Assembly (NCBI RefSeq): GCF_014696435.1
Contig: NZ_JACJQG010000003.1
Location: 62,001-126,000, forward strand
Source of the DNA: Calothrix anomala FACHB-343
GTDB taxonomy: Bacteria > Cyanobacteriota > Cyanobacteriia > Cyanobacteriales > Nostocaceae
Direction of reading: 5' to 3'
DNA length: 64,000 nucleotides
Below the pieces are notes generated by a model. The model did no database searches. It was not told where the DNA came from and was given only the letters and a program-made list of their open reading frames with translations. Position numbers and translations under genes: made by a program. Each line of letters starts with the position of its first letter. Positions within the stretch are counted from its first letter, which is position 1. Below, piece after piece: positions 35,652-53,926 of the stretch.

Positions 35652-36638
35652 GTGAAACTAGCTTTTATCATCGATCCCATCCATCAGCTCGATCCATGTC
35701 ACGATACTAGTGTTGCCTTAATGGAAGCAGCGCAAATACTCGGACATGAAGTGTGGATAACGCAGGCTAATCTGTTGACTGTAGTAGAGGGAAAAGCCTG
35801 GGCTATTTTACAGCGCGTAGAAATTACTCCAGTTCAACTGGTGGAAGGACGCTATTTTGCAGCAAATCCTTGGTACAAGTTGAGCAATGCAGAAAGCTTG
35901 TTGACTTGCTTAGAAACAATGGATGCTGTTTTTATGCGGACAGATCCACCAGTGAATGATGCTTATCTCTATGCAACTTACATTTTGGATTACATCGACC
36001 AAAACAAAACCTTAGTCATTAACAGTCCCAAAGGTATCCGAGGGGCGAATGAAAAAATGTACGCCCTCCAGTTTACCGATGTAATTCCCGAAACAATAGT
36101 AAGTGCTGATAAGGTGGTTATCCGCAATTTCTTAGAAGCAAAAGGCGCAGCAGTGCTAAAGCCACTAGGAAATAAAGCTGGGGAAGGGATTTTATTTTTA
36201 CAACCAAGCGATCGCAATTTTAACTCTATTGTCGAACTCAGCACTTCTCAAGGTCGAGTACCAGTAATGGTACAAACCTACCTACCACAAGCAAAAGAGG
36301 GAGACAAGAGAATCATTCTTCTCAATGGCGAACCCATTGGCGCTCTCAATCGCCTGTCTAGCAGTAGTGACTTTCGCAATAATATGGCTACTGGTGGTAC
36401 AGTGGCAAAAACGGAAATTACCGCCAGAGAGCAGGAAATTTGTAGACAATTAGCCGACAAATTACGCCAAGACGGCTTAATTTTTGTGGGTATTGATGTG
36501 ATTGGCGGTTACCTGACTGAAGTGAATGTTACTAGCCCAACTGGAGTTAGGGAAATCGACAGACTAGATGGTACTAACCTTGCTAGTCAAGTTATTCAAT
36601 GGGTTGAGCAAACGCTACAAGATAACGCAAACAAATAA
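35652..36638 (+). CDS. gshB: Glutathione synthetase
   Basis: ATP-grasp ligase joining gamma-glutamylcysteine and glycine. 328 residues from GTG 35652 (MKLAFIIDPIHQL), which has GAGG 9 bp upstream; a GTG at 35634 would add six residues. Family signatures are FMRTDPPVNDAYLYATYIL, NSPKGIRGANEKMYALQF, VLKPLGNKAGEGILFL and the C-terminal DVIGGYLTEVNVTSPTG. It follows grxC on the same strand. Confidence 0.97.
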   Translation: MKLAFIIDPIHQLDPCHDTSVALMEAAQILGHEVWITQANLLTVVEGKAWAILQRVEITPVQLVEGRYFAANPWYKLSNAESLLTCLETMDAVFMRTDPPVNDAYLYATYILDYIDQNKTLVINSPKGIRGANEKMYALQFTDVIPETIVSADKVVIRNFLEAKGAAVLKPLGNKAGEGILFLQPSDRNFNSIVELSTSQGRVPVMVQTYLPQAKEGDKRIILLNGEPIGALNRLSSSSDFRNNMATGGTVAKTEITAREQEICRQLADKLRQDGLIFVGIDVIGGYLTEVNVTSPTGVREIDRLDGTNLASQVIQWVEQTLQDNANK

Positions 36639-37028
36639 CTAATGACAACTGAACTATCAATAAAAATAATTTAGTTTCTGGAGTTTTTTAGTTTCTTCTA
36701 CTTTAGGGAAGCCTATGCCTATGTAATTTCCCGATCGCACAGCGAAAATACATACAAGTGAGAGCAGTTGTAGTGGGGCTAGTCTTCCCGAATTTTCAGC
36801 AAATAATTTCTATTTTCGCTATTTTATCCCATACAAAATTGAGGACATCTGAGTTAGCAGACTCATGCCCAATTTCATCAGGTTTGGGGTTAGGGTTGAG
36901 GAGTTTCGTCACTAATTAGCAATCTTAGTGATGGAACCGAAATAATTTACTCTTGATTGGCATCAACTCCATACCTAACACTTTCTATACTGTCTTTAGT
37001 TCGACCTGAGAATTAATTTGGCGATCGC
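36639..37028. other. Spacer between gshB and ftsZ 3' ends
   Basis: 390 bp between converging genes. No gene, heptad array or obvious terminator hairpin was found. Confidence 0.5.
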
Positions 37029-38321
37029 TTAATTTTTCGGTTGGTTGCGTCGCCGTTGCAGAAAATCAGGAATATCTAAGACAGGTTTTTCTTTGGGTTC
37101 GGGAATAGGAGAAGGTGGGCTAACAGTTGGCGGCTGTTGTGATACCGGTCTTCTGGGTGGCGGTGTGGTGACTCTGTTGTTAGCAACTGTTTGTTGTGGT
37201 GCTGCTTGTGGCTCACCTGTAAACCCAGTTGCAATTACAGTAATCCGGACTTCTCCTTGGAGTCTGTCATCAATCACCGCACCAAAAATAATATTGGCGT
37301 TGGGATCGACTACTTCATAAATTGTTTCCGCCGCAGCGTTGACTTCATGCAAGGTGAGATCGCTACCACCAGTAATGTTAAATACAACTCCTCTAGCTCC
37401 TTCAATCGAACATTCGAGTAATGGCGAAGAAATAGCCGCGATCGCCGCTTCTCTAGCTCTTGATTTTCCAGAACTCACGCCGATTCCCATTAATGCCGAT
37501 CCCGCATCAGCCATCACAGCTCGCACATCCGCAAAGTCAACGTTAACTAAGCCAGGGATCGTGATGATATCAGAAATACCTTGTACCCCTTGACGCAGGA
37601 CATCATCTGCATAGCGAAAAGCTTCTTGTACTGGTGTTTGTTCGGGGATCACTTCCAACAGCTTATTGTTAGGGATGATAATTAGCGTATCTACCCTACT
37701 TTTCAGACCTTCAATTCCTTGCTCTGCTTGACTGGTACGGCGTCGTCCCTCAAATACAAATGGACGTGTCACCACACCAACTGTCAGCGCGCCCATTTCT
37801 TTGGCTACTTCTGCAACGATCGGCGCTGCGCCAGTTCCCGTACCACCGCCCATACCAGCAGTGATGAATACTAAGTCAGCTCCTTCTAAAGCTGTAGCTA
37901 TTTCATCTCTCGACTCCTCTGCTGCTTTCTGTCCAATAGCCGGATTACCGCCTGCACCTAAACCGCGAGTCAGTTTCTGCCCGATTTGTAACCGACTAGG
38001 AGCACCAGCTAAGGTAAGAGCTTGGGCATCTGTATTAATTGACCAAAACTCCACGCCACTGACATCAGACTCAATCATGCGGTTAACAGCATTACCACCA
38101 CCGCCACCTACACCAATCACTTTGATGTTGGCAACTCTACCAGGAACAATCTCTCCAATGCGGTTACTTTCAGAGGTCATCTTTTTACCGTCATGATTTT
38201 GTCCAAAGTTCAGCCCTGAGTGATTAAAAGGATTGGTCGAGTTAACAGCCAGTGAGAACCCTGACTGTCCCACTGATTGGGAGTTTTTATAGGTAAGCCC
38301 TTGGTTATTATCAAGTGTCAT
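37029..38321 (-). CDS. ftsZ: Cell division protein FtsZ
   Basis: Tubulin-like GTPase that forms the division ring. 430 residues with a cyanobacterial N-terminal extension (about 1-62) before [20 protein letters not shown]. The tubulin signature [10 protein letters not shown] and T7-loop region [11 protein letters not shown] are intact. A Pro-rich linker leads to the C-terminal conserved peptide [11 protein letters not shown], which binds partner proteins. It lies downstream of ftsQ on the same strand, but 1.3 kb away. Confidence 0.98.
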
Positions 38322-39622
38322 TGGATTTGTGAAAGGTAGATAAACGACTTTTTCAGGTGTTACTCACCTAAGAGTCAACTATAGTTTGACACTGCCATAA
38401 ATCATGACAGTGTTCTTTATTGTTCTCACTACTTCCAACCCTAACAGGATTGTCAGTGCGAAATTTCGCTACGGCATCAGCCAAGAACGCAGCCGATCGC
38501 ACAACTAGTTCTAGAGAAGTATACCTATATTTACTTAAAAATGATCTGTATAACTTCAGTCTATGATTAATATTTTCAGTCTTAGGTTGGTAATTTAGCT
38601 TGATTGGAATTTGCTGTTGCCAATGGTTTTCTCCCGCGATTACTAAGAAATTAGAACGGTTACTAATTTTACAACTTACAGTATTGATTTTTTTTCTGGC
38701 GATCGCCACTCTCAAAATGTTAATTTTGTATATTTTATAATCTCCTTTCAAAGAAAAATACTGGTTAAAGAAATTATTACCAATATTAAATTTGACTAAC
38801 TCACAAATACGCCAGTGTTTAAATATACATATAACTACAGTACAAGTGAATCTACACCCAAAATTACACTCAGAGCGTACAACTTGTAAAGACAGGTTGT
38901 CAGGCTTTGTGTCTGATTGAGAAATATTTTTAATAGGTTTCATCATTGGAGATGATTGCACCTGATTACACAAAATTTGCCCTCTACTTGTTAATGTTTA
39001 GGTTGCTGGTCAATGGATAGCAAACCTTGATTGATTAGCTGTTGAGTTTGTTAACTCACGTTGGTTGGAGAAATATTCTACCTTATAGAAATCGTTACTG
39101 GTGTCGCTGGCACAGATATCGCCAAATAGCTATCCAACTTAGATAGTTTAGGGTGAGGATAAAATGTCCCCAGTTTTCACCAACCAAAGCTGACGACACA
39201 TAGGGTAAATTGTCACAAGAAAATCTCACAACAAAATACGAAAATCGCTCTTAAGAGTCAACCGTCAACCGTCAACAGTCAACAGTCAACCATCAACGCT
39301 ATTTTCAAGTTAGCCATTCACAAGAAAATCTCACAACCAAACATGAAAATCTCTCTTTCCCATGCCCCATGACCAATGCCCCATGCCCATTTTCAAGCTA
39401 GTCTGGCGAAAACTTTCTACCCTATGGCTAAATGTTAAAGTAAAAATAGAGATGCTTTTACTGACTAGGGCAGGTTTTGTAAATTCCCCTCTCATGTTAT
39501 TGGACAGTTAACGCTGATTGCCTGATTGGTCACTGAAATCTAAAAAAATAATTAATATATTCAGTAGCATATAATTTTTCAGTTATTCACAGCTTTGTAT
39601 ACATAAAACCAGCAACATTTGT
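38322..39622. other. 1.3-kb spacer between ftsQ and ftsZ
   Basis: Presumably the ftsZ promoter and leader region. It contains GTCAACC/GTCAACA heptads at 39258-39295 and GCCCCATG units near 39360-39390. A 201-codon open frame (38368-38973, minus) has no family resemblance or good composition and is not called as a gene. Confidence 0.5.
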
Positions 39623-40468
39623 TTAGGGAGTTCGGATATTTACCTTTAATTTTTTTTGGTTCAATTGTACTAAAGGATTTTCGGGGTTTTGAATATCAAT
39701 GTATTCTATTTGGCTAGAATTCAACTTGCTAGGTAAATGGCGCATTTGAGCTAGCATTTTAATTTGTTCGGCTAAATGGGAGCTAGGCGGGCCTAAATGT
39801 ACATTCCCTAGTTCTGTTTTCAAAATTAAATTTGTGGGATTTTGACAATCAATTTCTGTAACTTTGACGGAACTTTGACTCACAGACAGATAAAGTTGGC
39901 TCCAGTAAGGTAGATATTGTTCTGGTTTGCCAATGACTTTGAGACTAGGTAATGTACCAGTAGAATTCAACGCTCTGTATTTATCTAAAGGTATCCAAAC
40001 TCCGTTAGCGTCTATTAAACCTACAGATTCTTGTTTGTTACTATTTTCAGTATTTGTACTGTGAGTAGCTTGAGTAAACGCTACAGGTACTCGTTCCTGG
40101 ATTTCAATAATTAATCCTGGGGGGAACAGACGGCGCGTCACAATTGCTTGTGCAATGGTGGGTTGTCGCTTCAATGATTCTGCGATCGCAGCTGGTTGAA
40201 TCCGCCATAAAGACTGAGGATAGGAAATAGCGAGTAGCGATCGCATTGTCTCCTCTGACAGTGATTGATTCGCTGATTTGACAGCAATTTGATTAGGCGA
40301 ATTGAGTACCCACATTGGTTGAATTGCTATCCAAAGCAAACATCCTGCCAGACTACTAATAGCAAAGGTTCGCCAAATAGTCTGAATAATTCTCATCTGC
40401 TGCTGTCGCCGTAATTTTTGACGACGTTGGGCTAAATCCATACGGGACACTGATACTAAGCCAGCCAT
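39623..40468 (-). CDS. ftsQ: Cell division protein FtsQ/DivIB
   Basis: Bitopic divisome protein of 281 residues. A basic cytoplasmic N-terminus (RRQKLRRQQQMRIIQ) is followed by one membrane helix (FAISSLAGCLLWIAIQ). The POTRA domain comes next (NQIAVKSANQSLSEETMRSL; PAAIAESLKRQPTIAQAIVT; PPGLIIEIQERVPVAF), then the FtsQ beta domain with GLIDANGVWIPLDKY. The usual upstream neighbours murC and murB are absent here. Confidence 0.93.
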   Translation of the reverse strand: MAGLVSVSRMDLAQRRQKLRRQQQMRIIQTIWRTFAISSLAGCLLWIAIQPMWVLNSPNQIAVKSANQSLSEETMRSLLAISYPQSLWRIQPAAIAESLKRQPTIAQAIVTRRLFPPGLIIEIQERVPVAFTQATHSTNTENSNKQESVGLIDANGVWIPLDKYRALNSTGTLPSLKVIGKPEQYLPYWSQLYLSVSQSSVKVTEIDCQNPTNLILKTELGNVHLGPPSSHLAEQIKMLAQMRHLPSKLNSSQIEYIDIQNPENPLVQLNQKKLKVNIRTP

Positions 40469-41625
40469 TAAAACCTCAATTGTGGGTGAGCGTCAAAATT
40501 ATTGATACCTACGGGAGGGTCAATTAATTTTAGTAAACTCTGTTGGCATGTTGTAGCCTTGATTCTCAAGACTTTTTTCACGTTTGAGTAACAATCTACC
40601 GCAACTACATTAGGATTGTGGCACGAGGAAAAGCGAATCGAAAAGTTAGCGCTGCTAATTTTAATTCTCATGTAACCTTTTGACTGTAGGGTCACAGCCA
40701 TTATCTGCTAAAAAATCTACAGTAGCCGTCTGAGAATATTTAATTTATTTGTATATATACATTCAACTTTATTAAGTATTAATGCTTAGGATTTCTGAGG
40801 GCGATCGCTACTTTTTTTCACTTCCTCAACTCTTTGTCAAGAGCTTAGTTTTCAACTTTTATTTATATACTTGACAGAGTCGATTTTGTCCTCATATTGT
40901 CAAAAGTCCAGAGTCAAAGGCTAACTTGGACTTGAAACTGCACCCCACAGATTGCATCTGGCACCAAAGTATTTATACAGAGTTAATAATTTTTCAATAA
41001 ACATTAAATTTTTGCAATAAAACGAAAAACCAAGTTTATTAGCCTGTGTAAGCAAGCTTAATTTGTATCGCTCACTCTTATAGGGTGTAGGTGCAAGATA
41101 TCAAACAGCCTTAACATCAATATATAAGTCTAGGCGCGTCAAAGCTGATTAATCGCAAAATATTACTAGGTAGCCGTTAGAACATATAGACATCTGAGTT
41201 TTTTTTGCAGATAATTACAAATTATTAATTTAAATATAAATATTTTTGGTGTTTGCCTTGACAAAAAAACTGCAAAATGATATGTATAGCAATCTGCGAG
41301 CAAATAGTAACTTTTTTTACATATAAACTTAGCTATTGCGCCTTTTGCCTAATCAACTATAGACCAGAGATTGTCAAAAGCTCAATAGCAGCTGTACAAA
41401 TGACAGATACACATAACGTATAAGGAAGAACTAGCTTTCAGCAATCTACCGATATTTGTTTGTCGCGATGTCTTCAACAACTTTTTCGGAGAACGCCTTT
41501 GAGATCTGTCTTCCACTAGACAAAAATTGTCTATGCATTACTTACGTACCTCTATATTAGATAGAGATTTCGCGATAGCAAAAGATACAAAATAAAACCA
41601 GATCTAAATCTACATCTGCATCTAC
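40469..41625. other. 1.16-kb AT-rich spacer upstream of the NTPase pair
   Basis: Between ftsQ (minus) and the NTPase (plus). No gene is supported; a 77-codon frame touching ftsQ looks non-coding. No tandem repeats or strong hairpins. It likely contains the promoter of the STAND locus. Confidence 0.5.
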
Positions 41626-42957
41626 ATGAGAACGACCCTAAATTTGTCACGGTTTTATAAAGCATGTAACCCTAGCTACACACTCAATATGGGTGATGTA
41701 CTGGATAAGCAGTACTATATAGATTTTTCTGATGTACGTGGTTGCAAAATAGTTGAAGAACTACAACGTACTATCACCCGGATTTCGCCTGATGAGCCAA
41801 CCTGCCAATTATTTACAGGTCATATTGGTTGTGGGAAATCCACAGAGTTACAGCGTCTCAAAGCAGAGCTGGAAGTAGCAGGATTTCATGTAGTTTATTT
41901 TGAATCCAGTCAAGACCTAGATATGGCGGATATTGATGTCAGCGATATATTGTTGAGTGTCGCTCGTCAAGTCAGTGTTAGTTTAGAAAAAATTGGTATC
42001 AAACTCAAACCGGGTTATTTCACCAACTTATTCAAAGAAATTGGGGATTTTTTACAAACTCCGATAGAATTATCTGGACAAGCAGAATTATCTCTAGGTA
42101 TTGCCAAAATTACTGCCAAAACTAAAGATAGCGCCCAGATGCGCAATCAATTAAGGCAATATTTAGAGCCACGCACTAACAGTATTTTGCAAGCAATTAA
42201 CGAGGAGATATTAGAAAAATCTGTTGAACAGCTCAAACAACGCGGTCAAAAAGGCTTAGTAGTCATCGTTGATAACCTAGATCGGGTGGATATGCGTCCT
42301 GTAGCTTCTGGACGCACCCAACCAGAGTATCTGTTTATTGACCGAGGAGAGCAGTTACGCCGACTCAAATGCCATTTAGTCTACACCATTCCCCTAGCCT
42401 TGATTTTTTCTAACGAGTACGAAACACTCAAAAATCGCTTAGGTGGAGGAATCGCGCCAAAAGTTTTACCAATGGTACTGGTGCGTCAAAGAAATGGTGA
42501 AGACTCAGAGCCAGGAATGTCACTTTTGCGCCAGCTGGTTTTAGCCAGAGCTTTTCCAGAAGTTCCTTGGGATGAAAGATCTGAATTAATTACAGATTTA
42601 TTCGATGATCGAGATACCCTATGTCGGATATGTCGTGTCAGTGGCGGTCACATTCGTAACTTATTAGGTCTGCTGTACAGTTGCTTACAACGGCAAGATC
42701 CGCCTTTTTCTCGAGAATGCTTAGAAGCAGTCATCAAAGACTATCGAGATGACCTGTTGTTAGCTATTGATGAATATCAGTGGAAATTACTATTTGAAGT
42801 AGTGCAGCAGCAAAGCGTTAAAGGCGAGTCCGACTACCAAAGCTTACTACGCAGTATGTATCTTTTTGAATACCGAGATCCTCAAGGACGTTGGTTTGGT
42901 ATTAGTCCCGCATTAGCAGAAACAGAAAAAGTCCTGACTTGGCAGCAAAATACATAA
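41626..42957 (+). CDS. P-loop NTPase, partner of the STAND-WD40 protein
   Basis: A 443-residue stand-alone P-loop ATPase. Walker A is GHIGCGKST (65-73) and Walker B LVVIVDNLDRVD (211-222). The middle carries ESSQDLDMADIDVSDILL and the C-terminal part has CRICRVSGGHIRNLLGLLYS, like the helical lid of AAA/ORC- or KAP-type ATPases. There is no signal or membrane segment. This type is widespread in filamentous cyanobacteria and is described only as an ATP-binding protein. It is followed 289 bp later, on the same strand, by a giant STAND-WD40 protein; the pairing suggests a joint signalling function. Family detail is from memory and uncertain. Confidence 0.85.
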   Translation: MRTTLNLSRFYKACNPSYTLNMGDVLDKQYYIDFSDVRGCKIVEELQRTITRISPDEPTCQLFTGHIGCGKSTELQRLKAELEVAGFHVVYFESSQDLDMADIDVSDILLSVARQVSVSLEKIGIKLKPGYFTNLFKEIGDFLQTPIELSGQAELSLGIAKITAKTKDSAQMRNQLRQYLEPRTNSILQAINEEILEKSVEQLKQRGQKGLVVIVDNLDRVDMRPVASGRTQPEYLFIDRGEQLRRLKCHLVYTIPLALIFSNEYETLKNRLGGGIAPKVLPMVLVRQRNGEDSEPGMSLLRQLVLARAFPEVPWDERSELITDLFDDRDTLCRICRVSGGHIRNLLGLLYSCLQRQDPPFSRECLEAVIKDYRDDLLLAIDEYQWKLLFEVVQQQSVKGESDYQSLLRSMYLFEYRDPQGRWFGISPALAETEKVLTWQQNT

Positions 42958-43246
42958 GCAATGCAAATCAATAATTAAAAAATATTGTCAAAAATTTGCA
43001 CCCAAGGTAAACCATTCTGACTTCCTGCTCTATCTACAACCGTCTCCATAGCAGCTATCAATCTGTAGGTTAGATAACCAGCAAAATGGTACCCAATGCT
43101 TCTTAGCCATCACTAGTGGCTTGATTGACGCCACCCTGTACTAGCTACTCGTTGTAATTGTTCCCCAAATCCAAAACCTAGCATTGCTAAGTATTTCGGC
43201 TGCTTAATGTGTAATTTTTTCTTCTTTTATCGCCCTGGTTTTATTT
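42958..43246. other. Spacer inside the NTPase pair
   Basis: 289 bp with no gene and no clear terminator, so the two genes could be one transcript. Confidence 0.45.
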
Positions 43247-46200
43247 ATGACAAAGTGGCAATTCACAGCAGCTATCGTTAATGATAATCAACATGCTCTA
43301 CAAAGGATGGTTCGGGCAATCAAGCTCTCTAAAGGCCAATTTGCTTTGATTTTAGTCCGATGTAATTATGGGCAATTACGCGAGCAGATGTTGGGTAATC
43401 TTCGCTTACTAACTAAAGATATTTATATTCGAGAAATATTTCTGCCACCATCAACGAATGCTTTACATACACAAATCATCAAAGAACTCTTTTTAGATCA
43501 TCCTGTGGTGGCAAAAGACACTTTACCATCAGCTGTAATGGTTTTTGGGCTAGAGTCAATTCTTGCTCTAGATAATTTTTTGGCTGGTGTTAATCAAGCT
43601 AGAGACATTTATGCTGCTACTTTTCGATTTCCGCTAATATTTTGGCTACAAGATGACATCGCATCAATGCTATCAAGATTAGCTCCTGATTTTAAAAGTT
43701 GGGCAGCTACGACAATTAAATTTGAATTAGCTAAAGAATATTTAATTGCTTTAATCCGCCAAGAAACTGAATCTTTATTTGCGAAAGTTTTAGAGGCTGG
43801 TGCAGATAATTTTTTATCAAATGATGCTCTTGATTTAGCTCCCAAATCCCAAAATCGCCGAGAAATTGAGTCAGCAAGAAATGATTTACTGCGTCTATAT
43901 GGAGTCAAATTAGAGCCAGAATTAGAAGCAAGTTTAGAATTTGTTTTGGGGCGCGATGAATACGCCAACGATCAAGTCGATAGTGCTTTATTTCATTATC
44001 AAAGAAGTTTGGAACTGTGGCAACAGGTCGGTTCTGAAGAAAGTGGATTTGGAGATTTACAAGAGAATTTAGAAGTATATTCTCCCCATCCACCAAAATT
44101 AGCTTCGCCACCACTTCTGCGACAAGCTGTGGTAGTTTTCCATCTTGGCTTGTGTTATCGGCGCATGGCAGACTTATACCAAGGTGCTGATAGTAAATAC
44201 TGGCAAGATGCGCTGTTTTGGTTTAGAAAATGCTTAGAGATATTAGAAGAAGCACAAAGACAAGATTTAGTAGCTAAATTTATCTTACCTGCTTGCGAAA
44301 TGCTGCAACGCTTACAAGAGTGGGAAGAATTAGAAGAATTGGCACAAAAATCTTTAAAGCTACATGAAAATTATGGTAATCAAGCCCAAGTTGCCCAAGA
44401 TTACGGCTTTTTAGCAGATGTAGCCGCTTCCCAATCAAATTGGGTACTAGCCCATGAATTAGTCAACACAGCACTTTCGATTGCAGAACAAACCACAGAA
44501 GTTACCCGTCGCCAGGAAAGTTGGTATCTGTTAATGCTAGCCAGGACACAGAGGCATCTTGGGGAGTGGGAAGAAGCAATTAATAATTTAGAATGGGCTA
44601 AGGTAGTCTGTGAACTCCAGTATGAGCCATCGCTGTATTTAGAAATTTTAGAAGAATTGCGATCGCTCTACTTTTTTGAACGTCATGACTACACAGAAGC
44701 TTTTAGCCTCAAACAAGAAAAAATTCAAATAGAACATCAGTACGGTTTTCGCGCCTTTATTGGGGCAAGTCAATTACAGCCACAACGCTATCGAATTAAC
44801 CCAGTACTGGAACCGCAAAAAATACCCTTCATTCCTGAGGAAGTAGCCCAGGAAATTGCTGCATCTGGACGCCAACAAGATATTAGTCGATTAATTGAAC
44901 GCATTACTCGTGCTGACTATAAACTGACAGTGATTCACGGGCCTTCCGGTGTCGGTAAAAGCTCAATTCTCAAAGCAGGTTTAGTCCCAGCTTTAAAAGG
45001 AAAAGTCATCGGCGAACGCATTCCTTTACCGATTGTATTATCTGTATACACAGATTGGATAACAGCATTGGGGCGCAGTGTTAATCAAGTACTGACGGAA
45101 ACAGAAATCTCGACTGCACCAGAAATTACCCCAACTATCCTCATTGAAAAACTCCGGTTAGCATCGGAACGCAATCACACAATTATTATTATTTTTGACC
45201 AATTTGAAGAGTTTTTCTTTGTCAGTACATCTCCTGAAAAGAAGATTCAATTTTATAAATTTTTTAGCGAATGTTTAAATATTGCCTTTGTTAAAATTAT
45301 CTTAGCTATTCGAGAAGATTATTTACATTATTTATTAGAATTTGAACGTTTAAGTAAAGAAAATAGCGATGGCTTATACGATTTAGGTATCATTAATAAA
45401 AATATTTTAGATAAAGATATTCGCTATTTCTTAGGTAAATTTAACAGCAATGATGCTATTAATATTATCAAAAGTTTAACCCAACGTTCTCATTATGAAA
45501 TTACAGATGAATTAATTAATCAATTAGTGCATGATTTAGCTGAAGAAGTAGATGAAGTCCATCCGATTGAGCTACAAATAGTCGGTGCCCAACTACAAAC
45601 AGAAAATATTACTACCCTCGCCCAATACAAACTCTGTGGCGGCTCGACCAAACTAGTAGAACGCTGGCTAGAGGAAGTAATCAAAGATTGCGGTCAGAAA
45701 AATGAAGAGAAAAGTTGGAAATTATTATTTGAATTAACCGATGAAAAAGGTACAAGACCCCTCAAAACCAAAGCTGATTTGTCAGTTGCTCTTGGCAATA
45801 ATTTGGCAACCATGTCTGATTTTGACTCGGCTTGGGAATTTATCTTAGAGATTTTGGTAGGTTCAGGGTTAATTTTACGCGAGCCAGAAGAATTAGGCGA
45901 TCGCTATCAACTCGTTCACGATTACTTAGTGGAACCAATTCGCCAAAAAAATAACTATGGCATGGTTGCTGAACTAGAAAAAGTCAGAATTGAAAAAGAC
46001 CGAGCTGAAGTAGCACAAAAACTATCTCAAGAACAACTCAATTTAGTTTTACAAAAGCGATTGCGAGAAGCCCGGATCGCAGGCGGGGTATTGGCAATCA
46101 TGGCAGGGTCAATAGCCATATTATGGTGGCAAGCTGACTTACAAAGAAGAGCAGCAATTCTACAAAGCTTAAGGGCAGAACGTAGTGAAACTAACTTTAA

Positions 46201-48274
46201 AATCAGTGCTATTACTGCTGCCAGCGAAGCTCTATTTGCCTCCAATAAAGAATTTGATGCCTTGTTAGAAAGTTTACGGGCTTGGAACAGGCTAAAACTT
46301 TCAGAAGGAGTGCAAGCAGAAAATAAAATGCGGGTAGTAACAGCCTTGCAACAAGCTGTTTATGGTGTGAAAGAGCAAAATCGCCTAGAAGGACATAGTG
46401 ATATTGTCTGGGGCGTTGCTTTTAGCCCTGATGGTAAATTGTTAGCCTCAGGTAGCACGGATAAAACAGTCCGAATTTGGCTGCCTAATGGAACTTTACT
46501 ACAAACTCTCGCAGGTCATAATGATGCTGTCACCAGTGTCAGTTTCAGCCCTGATGGGCGCTTCCTGGCTTCGGTCAGTCTAGATAAAAATGTACTCATC
46601 TGGCGGAAAAATCCGACTACAGGGGAATTTGACCCACAGCCATACAAAACTTTGGAAGGTCATGGCGATTGGATTTATAGTGTCACTTTTAGTCCAGATG
46701 GGGAGTTATTAGCGACTGCTAGCAAGGACACCACGATTAAACTCTGGAGTAAAGATGGAAATTTAGTCAAAGTCCTTCGAGGACATCGGGGATGGGTTAA
46801 CTGGGTAACCTTTAGCCCTGATGGACAATTTATTGCCTCAGCCAGTGAAGATAAAACCATAAAAATTTGGCGAAGAGATGGTAACTTAGTCACTACCTTG
46901 CAAGGACATAAACAAGGTGTCATGGCTGTCGCCTTTAGTCCTAACGGTCAAATAATAGCTTCTGGGGGTAGAGATAAAATCATCAAGCTTTGGCGCAAAG
47001 AAGACAATAACAGTAAAGATGGCTTTTATTTTCGTCCCAGTAAAACTTTACAGCAGAATAGCAAGACAATTTGGAGCCTAACCTTTAGTTCTGATGGTAA
47101 AAAGTTAGCCTCTGGCAGTGATGATAACACCATTAATCTTTGGAGTATCAAGGGTAATTTATTAGATACCCTCAAAGGACATAGTGACGCCGTATCCAGT
47201 GTTGCCTTTAGCCCAGATAACAAACTTCTAGCATCAGCTAGTTATGATAAAAGCGTGAAATTGTGGCGTTTAGACGCCCCAACAATACCCATCCTCAAAG
47301 GTCATCAAGCTAGAGTTTTAAGTGTCGCTTGGAGTCCTGATGGTCAAATGTTAGCCTCTGGTAGTAAGGATAAGACAATCAAACTCTGGGAACGAAATCC
47401 CAAAAGCAATGAAGCTAAAGTCCATCTTTACAAAACTTTGCAGGGACACTTAGATAAAGTTCCTAGTGTCACCTTTGACCCTAAAGGCGAGATTTTAGCC
47501 TCGGCTAGCCACGACAAAACCGTCAAACTCTGGCGACGCGACGGTACTTTATTAAAAACACTCTCAGGACATAGCGATAACGTTCTGAGCGTCAATTTTA
47601 GCCCGGATGGCGAGCTATTAGCCTCAGCTAGTAAGGATAAGACGATCAAACTTTGGAGCCGTGATGGTCGGTTATTGACAACTCTAGTAGGGCACAATGG
47701 ATGGGTAAATAGCGTTAATTTTAGCCCAGACGGTCAAATTTTAGCTTCTGCTAGCGACGATAAAACCATCAAACTGTGGCGGCGTGATGGAACTTTACTA
47801 ACCACTTTCTCGCCTCAAGATAGTTGGGTGTTAGGTGTCAGCTTTAGTCCTACTGACCAATTATTAGCTTCAGCTAGTTGGGATAACACAGTCAAGTTAT
47901 GGCGGCAGGATGGTACCTTATTAAAAACCTTGTTAAAAGGCTATAGCGATAGCGTGAGCGCTGTGACTTTCAGCCCTAACGGTGAATTCCTCGCGGCTGC
48001 GAGTTGGGATCGTACAGTCAAACTCTGGAGCCGCGAGGGAAAATTAATTAAAACCTTGACTGGGCATCAGGGTGCAGTATTAAGCGTCAGTTTTAGTCCT
48101 GATGGGCAAACATTAGCTTCAGCTAGCGATGACAACACAATTATTCTCTGGAATTTGAATATTGATGACTTACTGCAGCGTGGTTGTAACTGGGTGGATG
48201 ATTACCTCAAGCACAACCGCAACGTCGATCAGCGCGATCGCACTCTTTGCGAAGGTATCATCCCTAACCCCTAG
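43247..48274 (+). CDS. TPR-STAND NTPase-WD40 giant signalling protein
   Basis: 1675 residues. Order: an N-terminal domain (1-215) with FPLIFWLQDDIASMLSRLAP, like the degenerate NTPase-like head of cyanobacterial TPR proteins; TPR-like helices (about 235-505); a STAND NTPase with Walker A GPSGVGKSS (near 565) and Walker B IIIIFDQFEEFFF (near 645-657). One transmembrane helix follows (942-962, VLAIMAGSIAILWW), then 14 WD40 repeats (1045-1638), enough for two seven-bladed propellers. STAND proteins are switch-like sensors in signalling, immunity and programmed death; the WD40 part would sense a ligand. No separate effector enzyme domain is visible. It is paired with the upstream P-loop NTPase. 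Confidence 0.9.
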   Translation: MTKWQFTAAIVNDNQHALQRMVRAIKLSKGQFALILVRCNYGQLREQMLGNLRLLTKDIYIREIFLPPSTNALHTQIIKELFLDHPVVAKDTLPSAVMVFGLESILALDNFLAGVNQARDIYAATFRFPLIFWLQDDIASMLSRLAPDFKSWAATTIKFELAKEYLIALIRQETESLFAKVLEAGADNFLSNDALDLAPKSQNRREIESARNDLLRLYGVKLEPELEASLEFVLGRDEYANDQVDSALFHYQRSLELWQQVGSEESGFGDLQENLEVYSPHPPKLASPPLLRQAVVVFHLGLCYRRMADLYQGADSKYWQDALFWFRKCLEILEEAQRQDLVAKFILPACEMLQRLQEWEELEELAQKSLKLHENYGNQAQVAQDYGFLADVAASQSNWVLAHELVNTALSIAEQTTEVTRRQESWYLLMLARTQRHLGEWEEAINNLEWAKVVCELQYEPSLYLEILEELRSLYFFERHDYTEAFSLKQEKIQIEHQYGFRAFIGASQLQPQRYRINPVLEPQKIPFIPEEVAQEIAASGRQQDISRLIERITRADYKLTVIHGPSGVGKSSILKAGLVPALKGKVIGERIPLPIVLSVYTDWITALGRSVNQVLTETEISTAPEITPTILIEKLRLASERNHTIIIIFDQFEEFFFVSTSPEKKIQFYKFFSECLNIAFVKIILAIREDYLHYLLEFERLSKENSDGLYDLGIINKNILDKDIRYFLGKFNSNDAINIIKSLTQRSHYEITDELINQLVHDLAEEVDEVHPIELQIVGAQLQTENITTLAQYKLCGGSTKLVERWLEEVIKDCGQKNEEKSWKLLFELTDEKGTRPLKTKADLSVALGNNLATMSDFDSAWEFILEILVGSGLILREPEELGDRYQLVHDYLVEPIRQKNNYGMVAELEKVRIEKDRAEVAQKLSQEQLNLVLQKRLREARIAGGVLAIMAGSIAILWWQADLQRRAAILQSLRAERSETNFKISAITAASEALFASNKEFDALLESLRAWNRLKLSEGVQAENKMRVVTALQQAVYGVKEQNRLEGHSDIVWGVAFSPDGKLLASGSTDKTVRIWLPNGTLLQTLAGHNDAVTSVSFSPDGRFLASVSLDKNVLIWRKNPTTGEFDPQPYKTLEGHGDWIYSVTFSPDGELLATASKDTTIKLWSKDGNLVKVLRGHRGWVNWVTFSPDGQFIASASEDKTIKIWRRDGNLVTTLQGHKQGVMAVAFSPNGQIIASGGRDKIIKLWRKEDNNSKDGFYFRPSKTLQQNSKTIWSLTFSSDGKKLASGSDDNTINLWSIKGNLLDTLKGHSDAVSSVAFSPDNKLLASASYDKSVKLWRLDAPTIPILKGHQARVLSVAWSPDGQMLASGSKDKTIKLWERNPKSNEAKVHLYKTLQGHLDKVPSVTFDPKGEILASASHDKTVKLWRRDGTLLKTLSGHSDNVLSVNFSPDGELLASASKDKTIKLWSRDGRLLTTLVGHNGWVNSVNFSPDGQILASASDDKTIKLWRRDGTLLTTFSPQDSWVLGVSFSPTDQLLASASWDNTVKLWRQDGTLLKTLLKGYSDSVSAVTFSPNGEFLAAASWDRTVKLWSREGKLIKTLTGHQGAVLSVSFSPDGQTLASASDDNTIILWNLNIDDLLQRGCNWVDDYLKHNRNVDQRDRTLCEGIIPNP

Positions 48275-48291
48275 TAACGCTGCCGAGAAAT

Positions 48292-48332
48292 GTCAACAGT
48301 CAACAGTCAACAGTCAACAGTCAACAGTCAAT
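48292..48332. repeat. TCAACAG heptad array
   Basis: Five to six copies of TCAACAG. The array supplies the last codons and the stop of the minus-strand gene at 48314-48643. Confidence 0.93.
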
Positions 48333-48643
48333 TTTTCCTCTGTGCTGTCCTCTGGTTGCAAGTTGGCTAAAAAAGCTTGTAGCTTCATCCGCTCAATATA
48401 AGGCCAGCCACCCTCAGCCTCAATATCTTTGAGTAACGAGTAAAGTTGCTGACGATTTTCAGGTAAAGTTTCTTGAAAAGCGCCATCGCGGATTTCTCGG
48501 TGCAACTGCTCTAACTGCCGCAGCAGAGCCAAAATAGCTATCGAATTTTTTTGACAACTTTCTACTGCATCATACACCGTAGTTGTAATCGTTTCTAATT
48601 TAGAAGCCAATTTCTCTGTATCTAAGCTTCTGTCGTTGTTCAT
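48314..48643 (-). CDS. Hypothetical coiled-coil protein ending in a heptad repeat
   Basis: 109 residues, largely helical (KLASKLETITTTVYDAV; LLRQLEQLHREIRDGAF), with a conserved-looking EAEGGWPYIERMKLQAFL near the C-terminus. Family not recognised. The final residues (KLTVDC) and the TGA stop come from the reverse complement of the TCAACAG array, so repeat insertion or expansion set the present C-terminus. It converges with the STAND-WD40 gene with a 39-bp gap. Confidence 0.65.
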   Translation of the reverse strand: MNNDRSLDTEKLASKLETITTTVYDAVESCQKNSIAILALLRQLEQLHREIRDGAFQETLPENRQQLYSLLKDIEAEGGWPYIERMKLQAFLANLQPEDSTEEKLTVDC

Positions 48644-49391
48644 TCCAGCTTTTCCTAAAAATCAAGTCTACTCAAATTTACCGGAGATTTTTGGCTTTTA
48701 CGGACGAAGGGCGATGTTATACCATTTCCCTTTGGGTGGTTGCTTGTTGCTCCTTAGTGGTTTCTACAAGGGCAGAGTATGACTAGATTAACCTGCGGAT
48801 GCAACAGAATTGCGATCGCTTCTTAATCAAAGCTGTGAGCTTTCCGCCAGCCTCAAAATCAACTAAAGGCGATCGCAATCTTCTTAGTTAATACCAGATT
48901 GCTTTGATTTTGAGTTTCAAAAAATCGTATGATCTGGCTGATTTCCCTATTTAAACCAAGGGCTGTATGTAGTGGCGACACATACATCATACATAATGTC
49001 TAAAGCGATGCCACTTTTGCCATACGCTATAGAAAAGTACCAAGGGAATTTTCCCCTTTTCTTTTCCTGAAAGCTCAGGGCCAATACCGCTCTGTGTCTG
49101 GCCATACTTAACCTATGTGCCTAGACTCTACTCCATGCTGACTATCTCAAACCGATGCTGTGTACTGGCCAAACTAGGATTTCTATCCTAGAACCAACAG
49201 CAACAGGTTGACAGAGGTTTAGCAAAGATTCAATTTGAGCGGTAGCACCCAGCTAACAGTAACCCCTTTGGGAAACATTTAAAGGCGATTAGCCTGATAA
49301 ACCCCGCCATTAGGGCTGTTTCTCATCAGAGAACAAAACTTTAGTGCAGTTTTACAACGTTAGATATTAATTTTTGAAATTGAGGTTGACT
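48644..49391. other. 748-bp upstream region of psbO
   Basis: No gene. It contains HIP1 octamers and a TTGACA at 49208-49213 that could be a -35 box, although no good -10 follows at the right distance. Presumably the psbO promoter and leader. Confidence 0.45.
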
Positions 49392-50225
49392 ATGAGGTAT
49401 CGCGCTTTAATTGTTGCATTTTTGGCCTTGTGCTTGGGGCTAATCACAGCTTGTAGCGATGGTTCATCTGCTAGCAGTAGTAAAGATGTACTCACCTATG
49501 AACAAATTCGCGGCACTGGTTTGGCTAACAAATGCCCTCAACTAGCAGAAACAAGCCGTGGTTCCATCCCCTTAGATTCTAGCCAGTCCTACTCCATCAA
49601 AGAACTTTGCTTGGAACCTACTAATTTCTTCGTTAAAGAAGAACCCGCTAACAAACGCCAAGAAGCAGAATTTGTTGCTGGTAAGCTGTTAACCAGATAT
49701 ACCTCCACTATCGATCAGGTACAAGGCGATCTGACATTTAATCAAGATAAGAGCTTGACATTTGTAGAAAAAGATGGTTTGGACTTCCAAGCTATTACCG
49801 TCCAACTCCCTGGTGGCGAGCGAGTTCCTTTCTTGTTCACCATCAAAAACTTAGTTGCACAAACACAGCCTGGTTTGAATAGTGTTAATACCTCCACAGA
49901 TTTTGAAGGCACTTTCAAAGTACCTTCCTATCGTGGTGCTGCTTTCTTAGATCCCAAAGGTCGTGGTGTTGTTACTGGCTATGATAATGCCGTAGCTTTA
50001 CCTGCTCAAGCAGATGATGAAGACCTTACCCGCACTAACGTTAAGCGTGCTGAAATTCTTAGTGGCAAAATTTCCCTACAAGTAGCAAAAGTAGATAGCT
50101 CTAGTGGTGAAATTGCAGGTACTTTCGAGAGCGAACAGCCCTCTGATACAGATTTAGGTGCTGGTGAACCCAAAGAAGTCAAGATTCGTGGTTTGTTCTA
50201 CGCTCGCGTTGAACCCCAAGGCTAA
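49392..50225 (+). CDS. psbO: Photosystem II manganese-stabilizing protein PsbO
   Basis: 33-kDa extrinsic PSII subunit that shields the Mn4CaO5 cluster on the lumenal side. 277 residues from ATG 49392 (MRYRALIVAF). The N-terminal export signal ends at LITAC21, a lipobox-like motif. Mature signatures are LTYEQIRGTGLANKCPQL with a partner cysteine in IKELCLEP, LTFVEKDGLDFQ, GAAFLDPKGRGVVTGYDNA and the C-terminal KIRGLFYARVEP. An upstream TTG in the same frame would add six residues. Followed by a strong terminator, so monocistronic. Confidence 0.98.
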   Translation: MRYRALIVAFLALCLGLITACSDGSSASSSKDVLTYEQIRGTGLANKCPQLAETSRGSIPLDSSQSYSIKELCLEPTNFFVKEEPANKRQEAEFVAGKLLTRYTSTIDQVQGDLTFNQDKSLTFVEKDGLDFQAITVQLPGGERVPFLFTIKNLVAQTQPGLNSVNTSTDFEGTFKVPSYRGAAFLDPKGRGVVTGYDNAVALPAQADDEDLTRTNVKRAEILSGKISLQVAKVDSSSGEIAGTFESEQPSDTDLGAGEPKEVKIRGLFYARVEPQG

Positions 50226-50308
50226 TTTATCTTGAGTACCGCAACTGACGGGCACTCACATCAGCATAATAATTCTGTAAGCATTAGGCTTGAATGCAAA
50301 AATTAACT

Positions 50309-50346
50309 CACATACACCTTTTATTGCTAGGTGTATGTGTTTTTTT
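50309..50346 (+). terminator. Intrinsic terminator of psbO
   Basis: CACATACACC and GGTGTATGTG form a perfect 10-bp stem with an 11-base loop, followed by seven Ts. Confidence 0.88.
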
Positions 50347-50673
50347 GTGGATCAAATAAAGCGCGATCGCTAATTTATTACACTTTGCATCTCAAAATTC
50401 AGTTGTCAATTGTTATACCAATCCGCATTCTCATAGGTAATTAAGATTTTTGTAGGGGCGGGGTTTCCCAGCCCTTGTGTGAGTTTCCCCACCCTTGAGT
50501 GGGTTTCAATGTTACATTTTTGATTGCAGTTAGGTATTAGTTATTGAAAGGATCTGGTCTAATACCCGCCCATAGCAAGTGGCGTGATTTTTAGATTTAT
50601 TTGTACGGGCGGGTTCACCGCTATCTTTATTTATTAACAAAGATGCAAATAAAGCCGCTCCTACCACAGTCCT

Positions 50674-50707
50674 AAACTCCATCCTCTTATGGGTGGAGTT
50701 TTTTATT
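50674..50707 (+). terminator. Orphan terminator-like hairpin
   Basis: AAACTCCATCC pairs with GGGTGGAGTTT (one G-T pair), loop of six, followed by a T-rich run. No coding gene precedes it on the plus strand after psbO. Confidence 0.6.
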
Positions 50708-51359
50708 TATAGATTGTAATTTTTTAAATATATCTTTATTAAGAGAACCTAAATCAATTAAATTAAATTCATAATTACACAAAATTTATAAATTTAAACT
50801 TTAAATTCATCGTTAATATTTACAACTGATAAACAAGAAAATCATTTGCTTTAAAAATAGTTGTTTAAAATTAGCACTTACTTGCTATCAACTACTGCTT
50901 GACAATAGATCTCTAAGTATATTTAAGGCAAAAATTAAACCTTTTTATAATAATTATGATTTTCTGGCAATTATTTACGTATTTTTACTAGACTCAATCT
51001 TTTTTACTGTTTGGCATAATTTGCAAAGGTTTATTTTTTTTATTTAGAAGTTCGCCGGATACTTCATAATTCAAATTCGGTACAATCTCGGTTCCAAATT
51101 TAATAAGAAATTTTATATTTTGGCTATATAGAGTTATTTGGCTGCAAGGAATACCAAAGCTAAATAACAAAAACAATCCTAAATTCGCTTGTTGAGATTT
51201 GGTGCGATCGCTAAAAAAAACTATGGTTTATTCAGCATCAAGTTGTTATGTACCATAGGTTAATTTGGCTCATTTAGGCTGATATTTAGCTAATATCATC
51301 CCATCGCACCAACTTTAGCAACGAATCCTTTTTTTGCTTTGCTTAACAAATGCGGTGCT

Positions 51360-52136
51360 ATGCCTACCACAGTCACCAACGAACTGAAGCATGAAACTTG
51401 GCAGTTATTGCGAGAATATCAGCAAACTCGCTCAGAAACTGTTCGCAATCAACTAGTTAATCTCAATTTTGGGCTAGTGAGAAGAGAAGCTCACTACTGG
51501 ATGAATCAATGCCATGAAAATTACGAAGATTTACTGCAAGTCGGTTGTTTAGGTCTAATTAGGGCGATCGAGAAATTTGAAATTTCTAAAGGATATGCCT
51601 TTAGTTCTTTTACTATTCCCTATATTCGCGGTGAAATTCAACATTACTTGCGAGATAAAGGTGTGACTGTGCGGATTCCTCGACGCTACTTAGCACTGCA
51701 ACAGCAAGCTATTGGAGTCTCCCGTTCTTTACGAGTAAAATATAATCGTCAGCCAACAGACTCTGAACTAGCAGCCGCATTAGATATTTCCCCCGATGAA
51801 TGGCAGGAAATTAAATTAGCATGGATCAATCGCGCACCTTTGAGTTTGGATGTACCCATCCAAGATGGAGAAGAAGGCGCAACTAGCTTAGGCGAATTAG
51901 TACCAGATCCGCATTACCGTAGTTTTCAATTAGCACAAGAAGACCAAATTCGTCTACAACAAGCTTTGGTTCAACTAGAACAACGAACCCGCGAAGTTTT
52001 AGAATGTGTCTTTTTACATGATTTGACGCAAAAACAAGTAGCAGAACAGTTAGGAATTAGCGTAGTTACTGTTTCTCGGCGAGTCAAAAAAGGGTTGGAT
52101 TTGTTAAAAAATCTCATGGGTGTAGCGGAAGATTAA
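51360..52136 (+). CDS. sigF: RNA polymerase sigma factor, SigF type (group 3)
   Basis: A 258-residue alternative sigma factor. Region 2 has DLLQVGCLGLIRAIEKFE and AFSSFTIPYIRGEIQHYLRDKG, followed by VRIPRRY; region 4 ends with the helix-turn-helix LTQKQVAEQLGISVVTVSRR. It is closest to cyanobacterial SigF, which in Synechocystis controls type IV pilus and phototaxis genes and in Anabaena has related surface roles. ATG 51360 (MPTTVTNEL) is chosen; an upstream start would add seven residues. A lipoprotein gene lies 165 bp downstream. Confidence 0.93.
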   Translation: MPTTVTNELKHETWQLLREYQQTRSETVRNQLVNLNFGLVRREAHYWMNQCHENYEDLLQVGCLGLIRAIEKFEISKGYAFSSFTIPYIRGEIQHYLRDKGVTVRIPRRYLALQQQAIGVSRSLRVKYNRQPTDSELAAALDISPDEWQEIKLAWINRAPLSLDVPIQDGEEGATSLGELVPDPHYRSFQLAQEDQIRLQQALVQLEQRTREVLECVFLHDLTQKQVAEQLGISVVTVSRRVKKGLDLLKNLMGVAED

Positions 52137-52300
52137 CTATCAATCAGTTGCCCCCGCAGTTATGCTGGTCTCACAGTACTAAAAATAACCATTGAAATCA
52201 AAAAAATTAGGTTATAAAAGGAACAGACTTAGCCTTGAATAAAAATTTTAGGCATGTTTATGTTCCAAACAAATTTTCCTATAGCTTTTGAGAACGGCTA

Positions 52301-53218
52301 ATGGGTAGAAAAAATTCCACAATCGCGGGTGTAGCCATTTTAATGTTAGCGATCGCTGGATGTAGTTCTGAAGAAACACCACAGGCTAGCAATCCTAGTC
52401 CTGCGGCTAATCTTCCCCCGACTACAAAATCAGCAATTAAATCGCCAACTGCTACCCAATCTTTTAATAATCCAATTGTCCCTGGTAAACAATCAAAAGT
52501 TGCCGCCGCAACTTATAGTCCATCGGCTACTTTGATTCAACCCACTAATGCTACAGAGCGGTTAGTGATGATAGCAAAAGGCCGAAATGACCCCTTTGCC
52601 GAAATTGTCCAAGCACCAACAGTTCAAGGACTTACCACAAATACGGCAAAATCTATTCCTAAGTTACCTCCCCTACCAATTGCTCAACCACCAGCAAAAA
52701 AAGTACCAGTACGTAGTGGAGTACAATCAGTTAGTCTAAATCCACCAGGAAGCAACAAGGCAAAACCTGTGTCTAAATTGGCTCTTGTGGCAAAAACTCC
52801 CAAAGTTGCGCCTAAATTGTTGCCTAGATTAACTCCAGTATTACCGCCGGTTATTCCTAGTCCCAAACTAGTATCTGTATTACCAGAAAAACCACAACCA
52901 GAATTAGCAAAATCTGTGCTTGTAACTGGCGTAGTTTTAATTGGTAAACAACTCCAGGCGATTATCCAAGTCCCAAATGAACCTACTAGTCGCTATGTAC
53001 AAGCTGGACAGCGATTAGCTAATGGTCTTTTAATTAAACGTATTGAAATGAATGAAGGCTCCAATCCTGTTGTGATTGTGGAACAATATGGTATTGAAGT
53101 TGCCAGAATGGTAGGCGATAATCCTGCTAATTCCGCAACACCAACTACAAACCCTGGCGCAAATCCTGTTTCTTGGATAACGCCATCCCAACATATTGTT
53201 GCTGTCGGAGCTTCATAA
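52301..53218 (+). CDS. Lipoprotein of unknown function
   Basis: 305 residues. A lipoprotein signal ends at LAIAGC, followed by a long Pro/Ala/Thr/Lys-rich flexible region (25-205). A compact C-terminal domain (about 205-275) contains VLVTGVVLIGKQLQAIIQVP and SRYVQAGQRLANGLLIKRIE. That small beta domain resembles the PilP/GspC-type periplasmic modules of pilus and secretion systems, an inference from pattern only. It follows sigF, a pilus-linked sigma factor in other cyanobacteria. Its TAA is directly followed by the GTG of the next gene, implying translational coupling. Confidence 0.75.
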   Translation: MGRKNSTIAGVAILMLAIAGCSSEETPQASNPSPAANLPPTTKSAIKSPTATQSFNNPIVPGKQSKVAAATYSPSATLIQPTNATERLVMIAKGRNDPFAEIVQAPTVQGLTTNTAKSIPKLPPLPIAQPPAKKVPVRSGVQSVSLNPPGSNKAKPVSKLALVAKTPKVAPKLLPRLTPVLPPVIPSPKLVSVLPEKPQPELAKSVLVTGVVLIGKQLQAIIQVPNEPTSRYVQAGQRLANGLLIKRIEMNEGSNPVVIVEQYGIEVARMVGDNPANSATPTTNPGANPVSWITPSQHIVAVGAS

Positions 53219-53464
53219 GTGGAGACTAAAGAAAAAATTGAATTTGCTGGCTTACCATTAGCTGTTTATCGAGAGATAGCAGCGCATTTGCGTCAAGTGG
53301 AAGGCTTGGAAGTCGGTTTGATTCCCCAATCATCCCTACAGTTTGATTATTACCAAAGTCAAATTGAAGGCTTGTGGTTATCTTGGAAATCAAGTCCGAC
53401 AACTCAAAATGTCCAACTGGTTCAGCAAATTCTCGCTTATTACCGAAATCGCTATGGTCTGTAG
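53219..53464 (+). CDS. Small hypothetical protein, coupled to the lipoprotein
   Basis: 81 residues from a GTG immediately after the lipoprotein stop. It has alpha/beta character: YREIAAHLRQVEGLEVGLI and a C-terminal QQILAYYRNRYGL. Family not recognised. Zero-base spacing strongly suggests the two products are made together. Confidence 0.7.
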   Translation: METKEKIEFAGLPLAVYREIAAHLRQVEGLEVGLIPQSSLQFDYYQSQIEGLWLSWKSSPTTQNVQLVQQILAYYRNRYGL

Positions 53465-53926
53465 GAAGTCAGGTAATAAGTAGTACTTGTACTTATTAAA
53501 TTTAAGTACACCAACACACATGAAAAATCAACTAGGGGCTAGGCGCTAGTATTTTTTACTGAGCATCCAGCATGGGCGTAGTTTTTTTAGTTATGCCTAT
53601 GCTGTGCGTAAGTATAACTATTCTGTGAGAATAGTTAACATGAATAAGGTATAAAAGTCAATGCCCTATGCCCCAATACGTTCATTTAAGGATAATTGTA
53701 GGTTGGGTTGAACGAAGTGAAACCCAACAAACCCCTGGAAATGTTGGGTTTCGTTCCTCAACCCAACCTACGTAGTTTATGGTTTTTGGCGCTAACTGAA
53801 CTGTATTGCCTTATGCCCCATTTTCAATTTAATTTAAAATACTATTTTATTTTGACTGGGCTACGTAATTTTCAGGTTGATTTTATAAGTTATATATAAA
53901 GCATTACGAATTACATAATTGTAAGA
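53465..53926. other. Spacer with hairpins and repeat element copy
   Basis: Contains an AGCATGGGC/GCCTATGCT imperfect pair (53568-53600), AACTATTCT-GTG-AGAATAGTT (53616-53636), and the nested inverted-repeat element 53697-53808. No gene. Confidence 0.6.
53697..53808. repeat. Nested inverted-repeat element, copy 2
   Basis: TGTAGGTTGGGTTGA at the start, GAAACCCAACA and TGTTGGGTTTC inside, TCAACCCAACCTACG and then GCTAACTGAACTGTATTG. Matches 12874-13005 in order and orientation, with a shorter centre. Confidence 0.75.

Follow-up and report, generated by a model that had tools for sequence, protein, structure and literature searches.

The 64,000-nucleotide (nt) stretch of Calothrix anomala FACHB-343 considered here ('the window': contig NZ_JACJQG010000003.1 of NCBI RefSeq assembly GCF_014696435.1, positions 62,001 to 126,000) carries a gene for a stand-alone P-loop ATPase followed, after a spacing of 289 nt, by a gene for a giant partner protein. 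The ATPase and the partner's N-terminal region, here termed the N-domain, constitute a conserved and co-inherited core in which the N-domain is without a P-loop motif. A sequence-only reading of the window had described two same-strand open reading frames (ORFs), and their positions and strand are as it gave them (Table 1). Walker A and B motifs are indeed present in both products, GHIGCGKST and VVIVDNLD in the ATPase and GPSGVGKS and IIIIFDQFEE in the giant, and Pfam matches together with hydropathy bear out the anatomy proposed for the latter: an unassigned N-domain, TPR-like helices, a STAND NTPase, a membrane helix and 14 WD40 repeats.

Over its P-loop core the ATPase has weak Pfam matches to ATPase_2, AAA_22 and KAP, models that compete at E values of 1e-6 to 1e-5. 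KAP NTPase (PF07693) is passed at 26.4 bits (cut-off 20) and AAA_22 at 27.7 (cut-off 27); the paralogues L021 and L022 are below the cut-off for both, and paralogues in the same genome keep Walker A and Walker B. KAP NTPases have transmembrane insertions in their P-loop domain. For all its likeness to these three types of P-loop ATPase, the window ATPase differs in having no single winning model and no relative of solved structure, a sequence search of the PDB up to E 0.1 having returned none. The ATPase matches no known unrelated housekeeping family, an outcome that the sequence-only reading had said would refute it.

In the giant, the nSTAND1 match (PF20703) reaches 109.3 bits against a gathering cut-off of 27.1, with Walker A and B intact. 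Besides the membrane helix of Table 1, hydropathy marks a weaker stretch (residues 97-115; 1.65) within the N-domain. Pfam offers nothing convincing over residues 1 to about 200, where DUF6276 (0.047) is under its cut-off. The middle and C-terminal parts share the architecture of cyanobacterial nSTAND1-WD40 proteins, but the nSTAND1 differs in being of a lower-scoring group tied to the N-domain: the best stretches in five N-domain giants of this genome score 73-125 bits, far below the 354-425 bits of ten other nSTAND1 places in the genome (contigs C97, C119, C68, C73, C99 and C124), and the NTPase of the giants is therefore a separate subgroup.

The 14 WD40 repeats probably form two 7-bladed propellers. 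All 26 full-length Nostocales orthologues have 14 (29 loci, less L036 and L044, excluded because the giant is truncated at a contig end, and L040, where it is split in two ORFs), and repeat i matches repeat i best in 315 of 364 comparisons, which rules out fast diversification of the WD40 sensor. Among loci from GTDB (the best 80 of 503), exactly 14 are present in 59 of the 63 giants counted as full length. When the window copy is compared with ten orthologues, the ratio of nonsynonymous to synonymous substitution rates (dN/dS) of the ATPase falls at 0.03-0.06, that of the N-domain at 0.04-0.26 and that of the WD40 part, where calculable, at 0.06-0.08, values that are rough because dS is above 1, and so saturated, in most comparisons.

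Table 1. Features of the pair and its surroundings, in window coordinates
Feature	Position	Strand	Basis
Stand-alone P-loop ATPase (AAA/KAP/STAND-like), 443 residues; constant component 1	41626..42957	+	ORF, Walker motifs, weak Pfam matches, paralogues
Partner protein, 1675 residues: N-domain, TPR, nSTAND1, membrane helix, 14 WD40	43247..48274	+	ORF, Pfam, hydropathy
N-domain, residues ~1-200; constant component 2, predicted P-loop-less alpha/beta	43247..43846	+	Conservation, AlphaFold model
TPR-like helices, residues ~215-500	43889..44746	+	TPR_12 1.7e-13
nSTAND1 NTPase, residues ~520-930; Walker A at residue 565	44804..46036	+	PF20703 4.3e-31
Predicted membrane helix, residues 942-960	46070..46126	+	Kyte-Doolittle 1.75 over 19 residues
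14 WD40 repeats, residues ~1046-1640	46382..48166	+	14 Pfam stretches
ftsQ (FtsQ-type POTRA), divergent neighbour	39623..40468	-	PF08478 8.1e-15, synteny
ftsZ	37029..38321	-	TIGR00065 3.8e-138
Conserved non-coding block, ftsQ-ATPase intergenic region	41363..41412		20-nt window identity

A core of ATPase and N-domain

The genome from which the window comes (9.24 Mb in 144 contigs) has seven ATPases. Each of the six others has an N-domain protein directly downstream, three of these being giants (1375-2032 residues) and three TPR proteins (596-793 residues), so that here, as in genome G125, the pair occurs seven times, the highest number found. No ATPase lies in the stretches fetched around a giant on contig C53 and a 166-residue single N-domain gene on C67.

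For a count against chance, 22 genomes were picked from a sample of the phylum as having matches and, mostly, few contigs, and a pair was scored where a merged ATPase match was followed within 3 kb by an N-domain of the same strand. This held for 79 of 90 matches against an expectation of 0.13, with a median of 59 nt between the matched stretches; chance adjacency is ruled out, and homologues of the two genes are not usually apart. Among the 11 unpaired matches five are fragments under 700 nt, one (G011) adjoins a weak N-domain partner (2e-5) after all and one (G167) is a VWA-linked fusion. In the best 80 GTDB loci the partner is present in 77; of the exceptions, L056 stops about 670 nt past the ATPase, and L054 and L073 are without a partner. 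It is also present in 57 of 60 further regions of the phylum, a selection skewed to distant relatives and partly overlapping with the 22 genomes, and in 38 of those 57 the ORFs, mechanically called, overlap or are at most 20 nt apart. Matches occur in 56 of the 194 genomes of the phylum sample; in eight of these every match has an E value above 1e-5. A diverged pair on an Acidisarcina plasmid (ATPase 4e-29, N-domain 3e-6) means that the pair is not limited to cyanobacteria. The sequence-only reading had called the upstream ATPase obligate-looking; the adjacency stands, but the constant partner is the N-domain and not the STAND-WD40 part.

Across 144 ATPase/N-domain pairs Walker A is present in every ATPase and in none of the N-domains, in which Cys39 and the Asp of an APD motif are each conserved in 143. 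An AlphaFold model of residues 1-240, built with 46 sequences (mean predicted local distance difference test score 91.8, predicted template modelling score 0.86), has strands at 34-38, 61-65, 96-100, 130-134 and 153-158 alternating with helices; strand 34-38 is followed after just three residues by helix 42-55. The predicted fold is alpha/beta without space for a P-loop. The modelled order of elements is compatible with an NTPase-like alpha/beta core that lost its P-loop; a Rossmann-type fold would fit too. The distance matrix of the ATPases correlates with that of the N-domains (r=0.887 for all 144 pairs); in the 98 pairs with nSTAND1 the value is 0.883, against 0.781 for ATPase and nSTAND1.

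A lone N-domain gene recurs across genomes, with 151-212 residues in the loci fetched (L024:7157-7657, which is the case on C67 mentioned above, and L230-L239) and with partly conserved neighbours; such proteins are possible adaptors or competitors for the ATPases.

Exchangeable partner parts and conflict-type contexts

Behind the N-domain the partner varies. In the 57 phylum regions it has nSTAND1 with at least eight WD40 repeats in 13, nSTAND1 with fewer in 8, TPR or other content in 32, and the N-domain only in 4. Because two more distant partners (L216, L217) carry NACHT-like NTPases and TPR arrays there, the N-domain seems to have acquired STAND NTPases of different kinds.

Conflict-type contexts amount to four cases of three kinds. 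The gene between ATPase and partner is an ATPase-TIR_2 fusion in genome G024 (L167) and on a mobilizable plasmid of Calothrix (L137). The three-gene variant there (L137:7995-15502, L167:3370-10670) consists of the ATPase, the fusion and an N-domain-nSTAND1 protein without counted WD40 repeats. As a common output the TIR extension is ruled out: of 386 genomes, 6 have a match, and in three of these E is near 1e-3. On a Nostoc plasmid (L135, 3958-9131) the ATPase is fused behind SAV_2336N, beside a VMAP gene and a gene annotated MoxR, and in genome G167 (L210, 469-4609) the gene for a 674-residue ATPase-containing protein is preceded by one for VWA_CoxE and one for an AAA protein, the latter MoxR-like on our reading (bpMoxR 20.3 bits, cut-off 27). 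Relatives occur on plasmids, including one mobilizable and one conjugative. Since a few relatives join TIR and MoxR-vWA-like contexts, an NLR-like signalling role is plausible for the family.

The position beside ftsQ and ftsZ

A feature absent from the sequence-only reading is that the pair is divergent from ftsQ-ftsZ. The other window neighbours scanned are gshB, a 109-residue ORF without a match, psbO and sigF. The ATPase is linked to ftsQ in 42 of the best 80 GTDB loci, divergently in all 42 and in 40 without an intervening ORF of at least 120 residues. These are all 29 of L025-L053 plus 13 others (from Microcoleus, Okeania, Arthrospira, Moorena, Limnothrix and others). Within L025-L053, contig ends included, gshB is present in 26 and psbO in 25, against none of the 13 for either gene within the stretches covered. 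In the phylum regions the link is seen in 3 of 60 (L142, L144 and L146, with about 3 kb upstream available for the check). On a list of 28 self-chosen genomes, 27 with an FtsQ match, 14 of the 27 have an ATPase divergent from ftsQ within 2 kb, among the matches listed.

Six genomes (G125, G068, G019, G024, G074, G022) have an ATPase module at a distance of 8-14 kb from ftsQ, and G125, G068 and G024 have it in addition to the divergent copy. A natural empty site is found in G022 (L199:853-5616), where orf48314 and ftsQ are 70 nt apart, with ftsZ beyond and the pair absent; the pair is therefore dispensable.

In an ATPase tree of 153 rows made by a quick method, the 43 ftsQ-linked rows fall within one starred branch of 88, intermixed with unlinked relatives, and the link label changes 7 times against 38 in shuffles, some rows being 'unlinked' through short contigs or, for L142, L144 and L146, later testing. 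About 215-260 nt before the ATPase start a non-coding block (41363-41412) is conserved in most of 12 Nostocales sequences, L042 being without it; 20-nt windows in it reach an identity to the window of 0.83, against a mean of 0.44 over the 12. It is a possible promoter or operator. No Rfam element reaches its gathering threshold at 36000-54000, and a promoter and terminator scan, with counts of 25 and 10 compared with 21.9 and 7.7 for shuffled sequences, was discarded.

Given the position kept across families, the low dN/dS, the in-register repeats and the failure to find relatives in phage and viral collections (searched partly by pattern scan), the window copy looks to be an old chromosomal resident under purifying selection. 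For this copy a mobile antiphage cassette is ruled out by the synteny together with the lack of a phage or viral relative, and an old selected resident beside ftsQ-ftsZ of filamentous cyanobacteria most likely monitors an internal cell state instead.

A possible two-gene signalling switch

The reading favoured here, to which we give a probability of about one half, is that the two genes encode an NTPase signalling switch: the N-domain would serve as the dock for the ATPase, and what follows it in the partner is an exchangeable sensor or scaffold module. To judge from the architecture, the giant, tethered to the membrane, would bind a cellular ligand through its WD40 propellers and TPRs. STAND proteins work by nucleotide switching and oligomerisation, and nSTAND1 would exchange nucleotide and the giant oligomerise. 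The N-domains, clustered in this way, would bind the separate ATPase and switch it on, perhaps in a mixed active/inactive ring; this docking is proposed because the pairing is constant and the P-loop missing, and the N-domain is the likely docking part. The ATPase would then remodel or release a downstream target, and in rare relatives the output seems to be built in through ATPase-TIR and ATPase-vWA fusions.

Several observations weigh against this switch. Profile comparison of N-domain and ATPase finds no homology (hhalign probability 0.5-2%), so that the N-domain as a recognisable sequence copy of the ATPase is ruled out and, for the same reason, a mixed ring is speculative. Only 79 of the 101 N-domains in the 22 genomes are preceded by an ATPase; 22 are not, 13 of these being in frames of at most 215 codons. 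No partner is seen for the full-length ATPases of G002, G099 and G129 or for that of G066, which is split in two ORFs. The distance correlation marks stable pairing rather than contact, as co-inheritance by itself would also make it high.

A described system with parallels is that of nSTAND2 (Kaur et al. 2021, PMC8195603), in which, as far as the accessible part of that paper goes, a gene for an active NTPase adjoins a motif-less gene with variable modules, GT4 or HEPN effectors being the commonest fusion partners of the inactive module. Alike are the adjacent genes, one with and one without an NTP-binding motif, and the variable extra modules. However, in the present family the extra modules are TPR, nSTAND1, NACHT and WD40 sensor parts, and, where both nSTAND2 modules are homologous STAND, the N-domain lacks detectable homology to the ATPase, although the order of elements in its model would suit a P-loop-less NTPase core. 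Neither GT4 nor HEPN effectors are listed in the partners scanned (best 25 families where tables were long), nor is a Pfam nSTAND2 match, though whether the library holds such a model was not checked. PMC8195603 also names, from Leipe et al. 2004, an 'Npun2340/2341 family' that may be related. The MoxR-vWA ternary system (Kaur 2020, PMC7159879) differs in that the window has a two-gene unit with no MoxR or vWA among the neighbours scanned; in L135 and L210, fusions place relatives of the ATPase within systems of this or a similar kind.

Foremost among the alternatives, but rather unlikely, is an NLR-like anti-invader role, with the propellers sensing a phage product, nSTAND1 oligomerising and the ATPase arm triggering dormancy or death of the infected filament cell. 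The STAND-WD40 anatomy, the TIR and MoxR-vWA-like relatives, the mobilizable and conjugative plasmids and the several paralogues per genome with differing sensor parts speak for it. Against it, no enzymatic effector is recognised in the window pair or the scanned partners, the separate ATPase-TIR proteins excepted, and PADLOC matches are weak or repeat-driven: for the ATPase partial ones only (PDC-S20 4.6e-6, mad8 6.4e-5), and for the giant HEAT-ARM_XIII (9.2e-52; five stretches, the best covering 115 residues of the WD40 part in a model of 1972 positions), TPR (0.0028) and LmuB (0.013), with no model matched over most of its length by either protein. The points that make the window clade look resident count against it as well. 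The NLR-like sensor of the sequence-only reading is thus retained as regards STAND-propeller anatomy and family contexts, but not as regards defence by the window copy; a defence role is possible for the family.

The favoured switch may also be set beside a regulator of septation or filament integrity, which we consider improbable, in which the giant, from its place at the membrane, would sense the state of the divisome or septum, and a component of the divisome or septal junction would be remodelled by the ATPase. The divergent link with little between, its persistence in the 13 loci where gshB and psbO were not found, and the further modules at 8-14 kb are in its favour, as are the organisms named among the best 80 GTDB loci, which we take to be almost all filamentous. 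However, the pair is dispensable, 13 of the 27 FtsQ-bearing genomes are without the link among the matches listed, and linkage by itself is no proof of function. No literature joining WD40 with ftsQ (with or without ftsZ) in cyanobacteria was found, and the accessible parts of the division papers PMC6175996 and PMC12288457 do not mention the pair. More doubtful still is a combined form, an NLR-like multicellularity checkpoint guarding the septum or divisome, its core re-used elsewhere with TPR or NACHT sensors and TIR or vWA outputs and lone N-domains as competitors or adaptors. Separate action of ATPase and giant, with adjacency due to operon inheritance, has partnerless ATPases and ATPase-free large N-domain proteins on its side but is very improbable, given pairing that far exceeds chance, outlasts a swap of the partner's entire C-terminal part, and holds in all seven ATPase loci of this genome and on the acidobacterial plasmid.

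What is constant is the ATPase and the P-loop-less N-domain, a core that combines with very different sensor parts. The accessible parts of PMC7159879, PMC8195603 and PMC10907252, which describe nSTAND1, nSTAND2 or ternary systems, do not name the pair; it may be described elsewhere, above all in subscription literature. If the N-domain joins a STAND sensor to a separate ATPase, the pair would be a testable two-protein form of NLR signalling. The boldest reading still open ties the pair to division or to the integrity of the filament, and the copy beside ftsQ-ftsZ would then be an unusual connection of immune-like architecture to division in multicellular bacteria.

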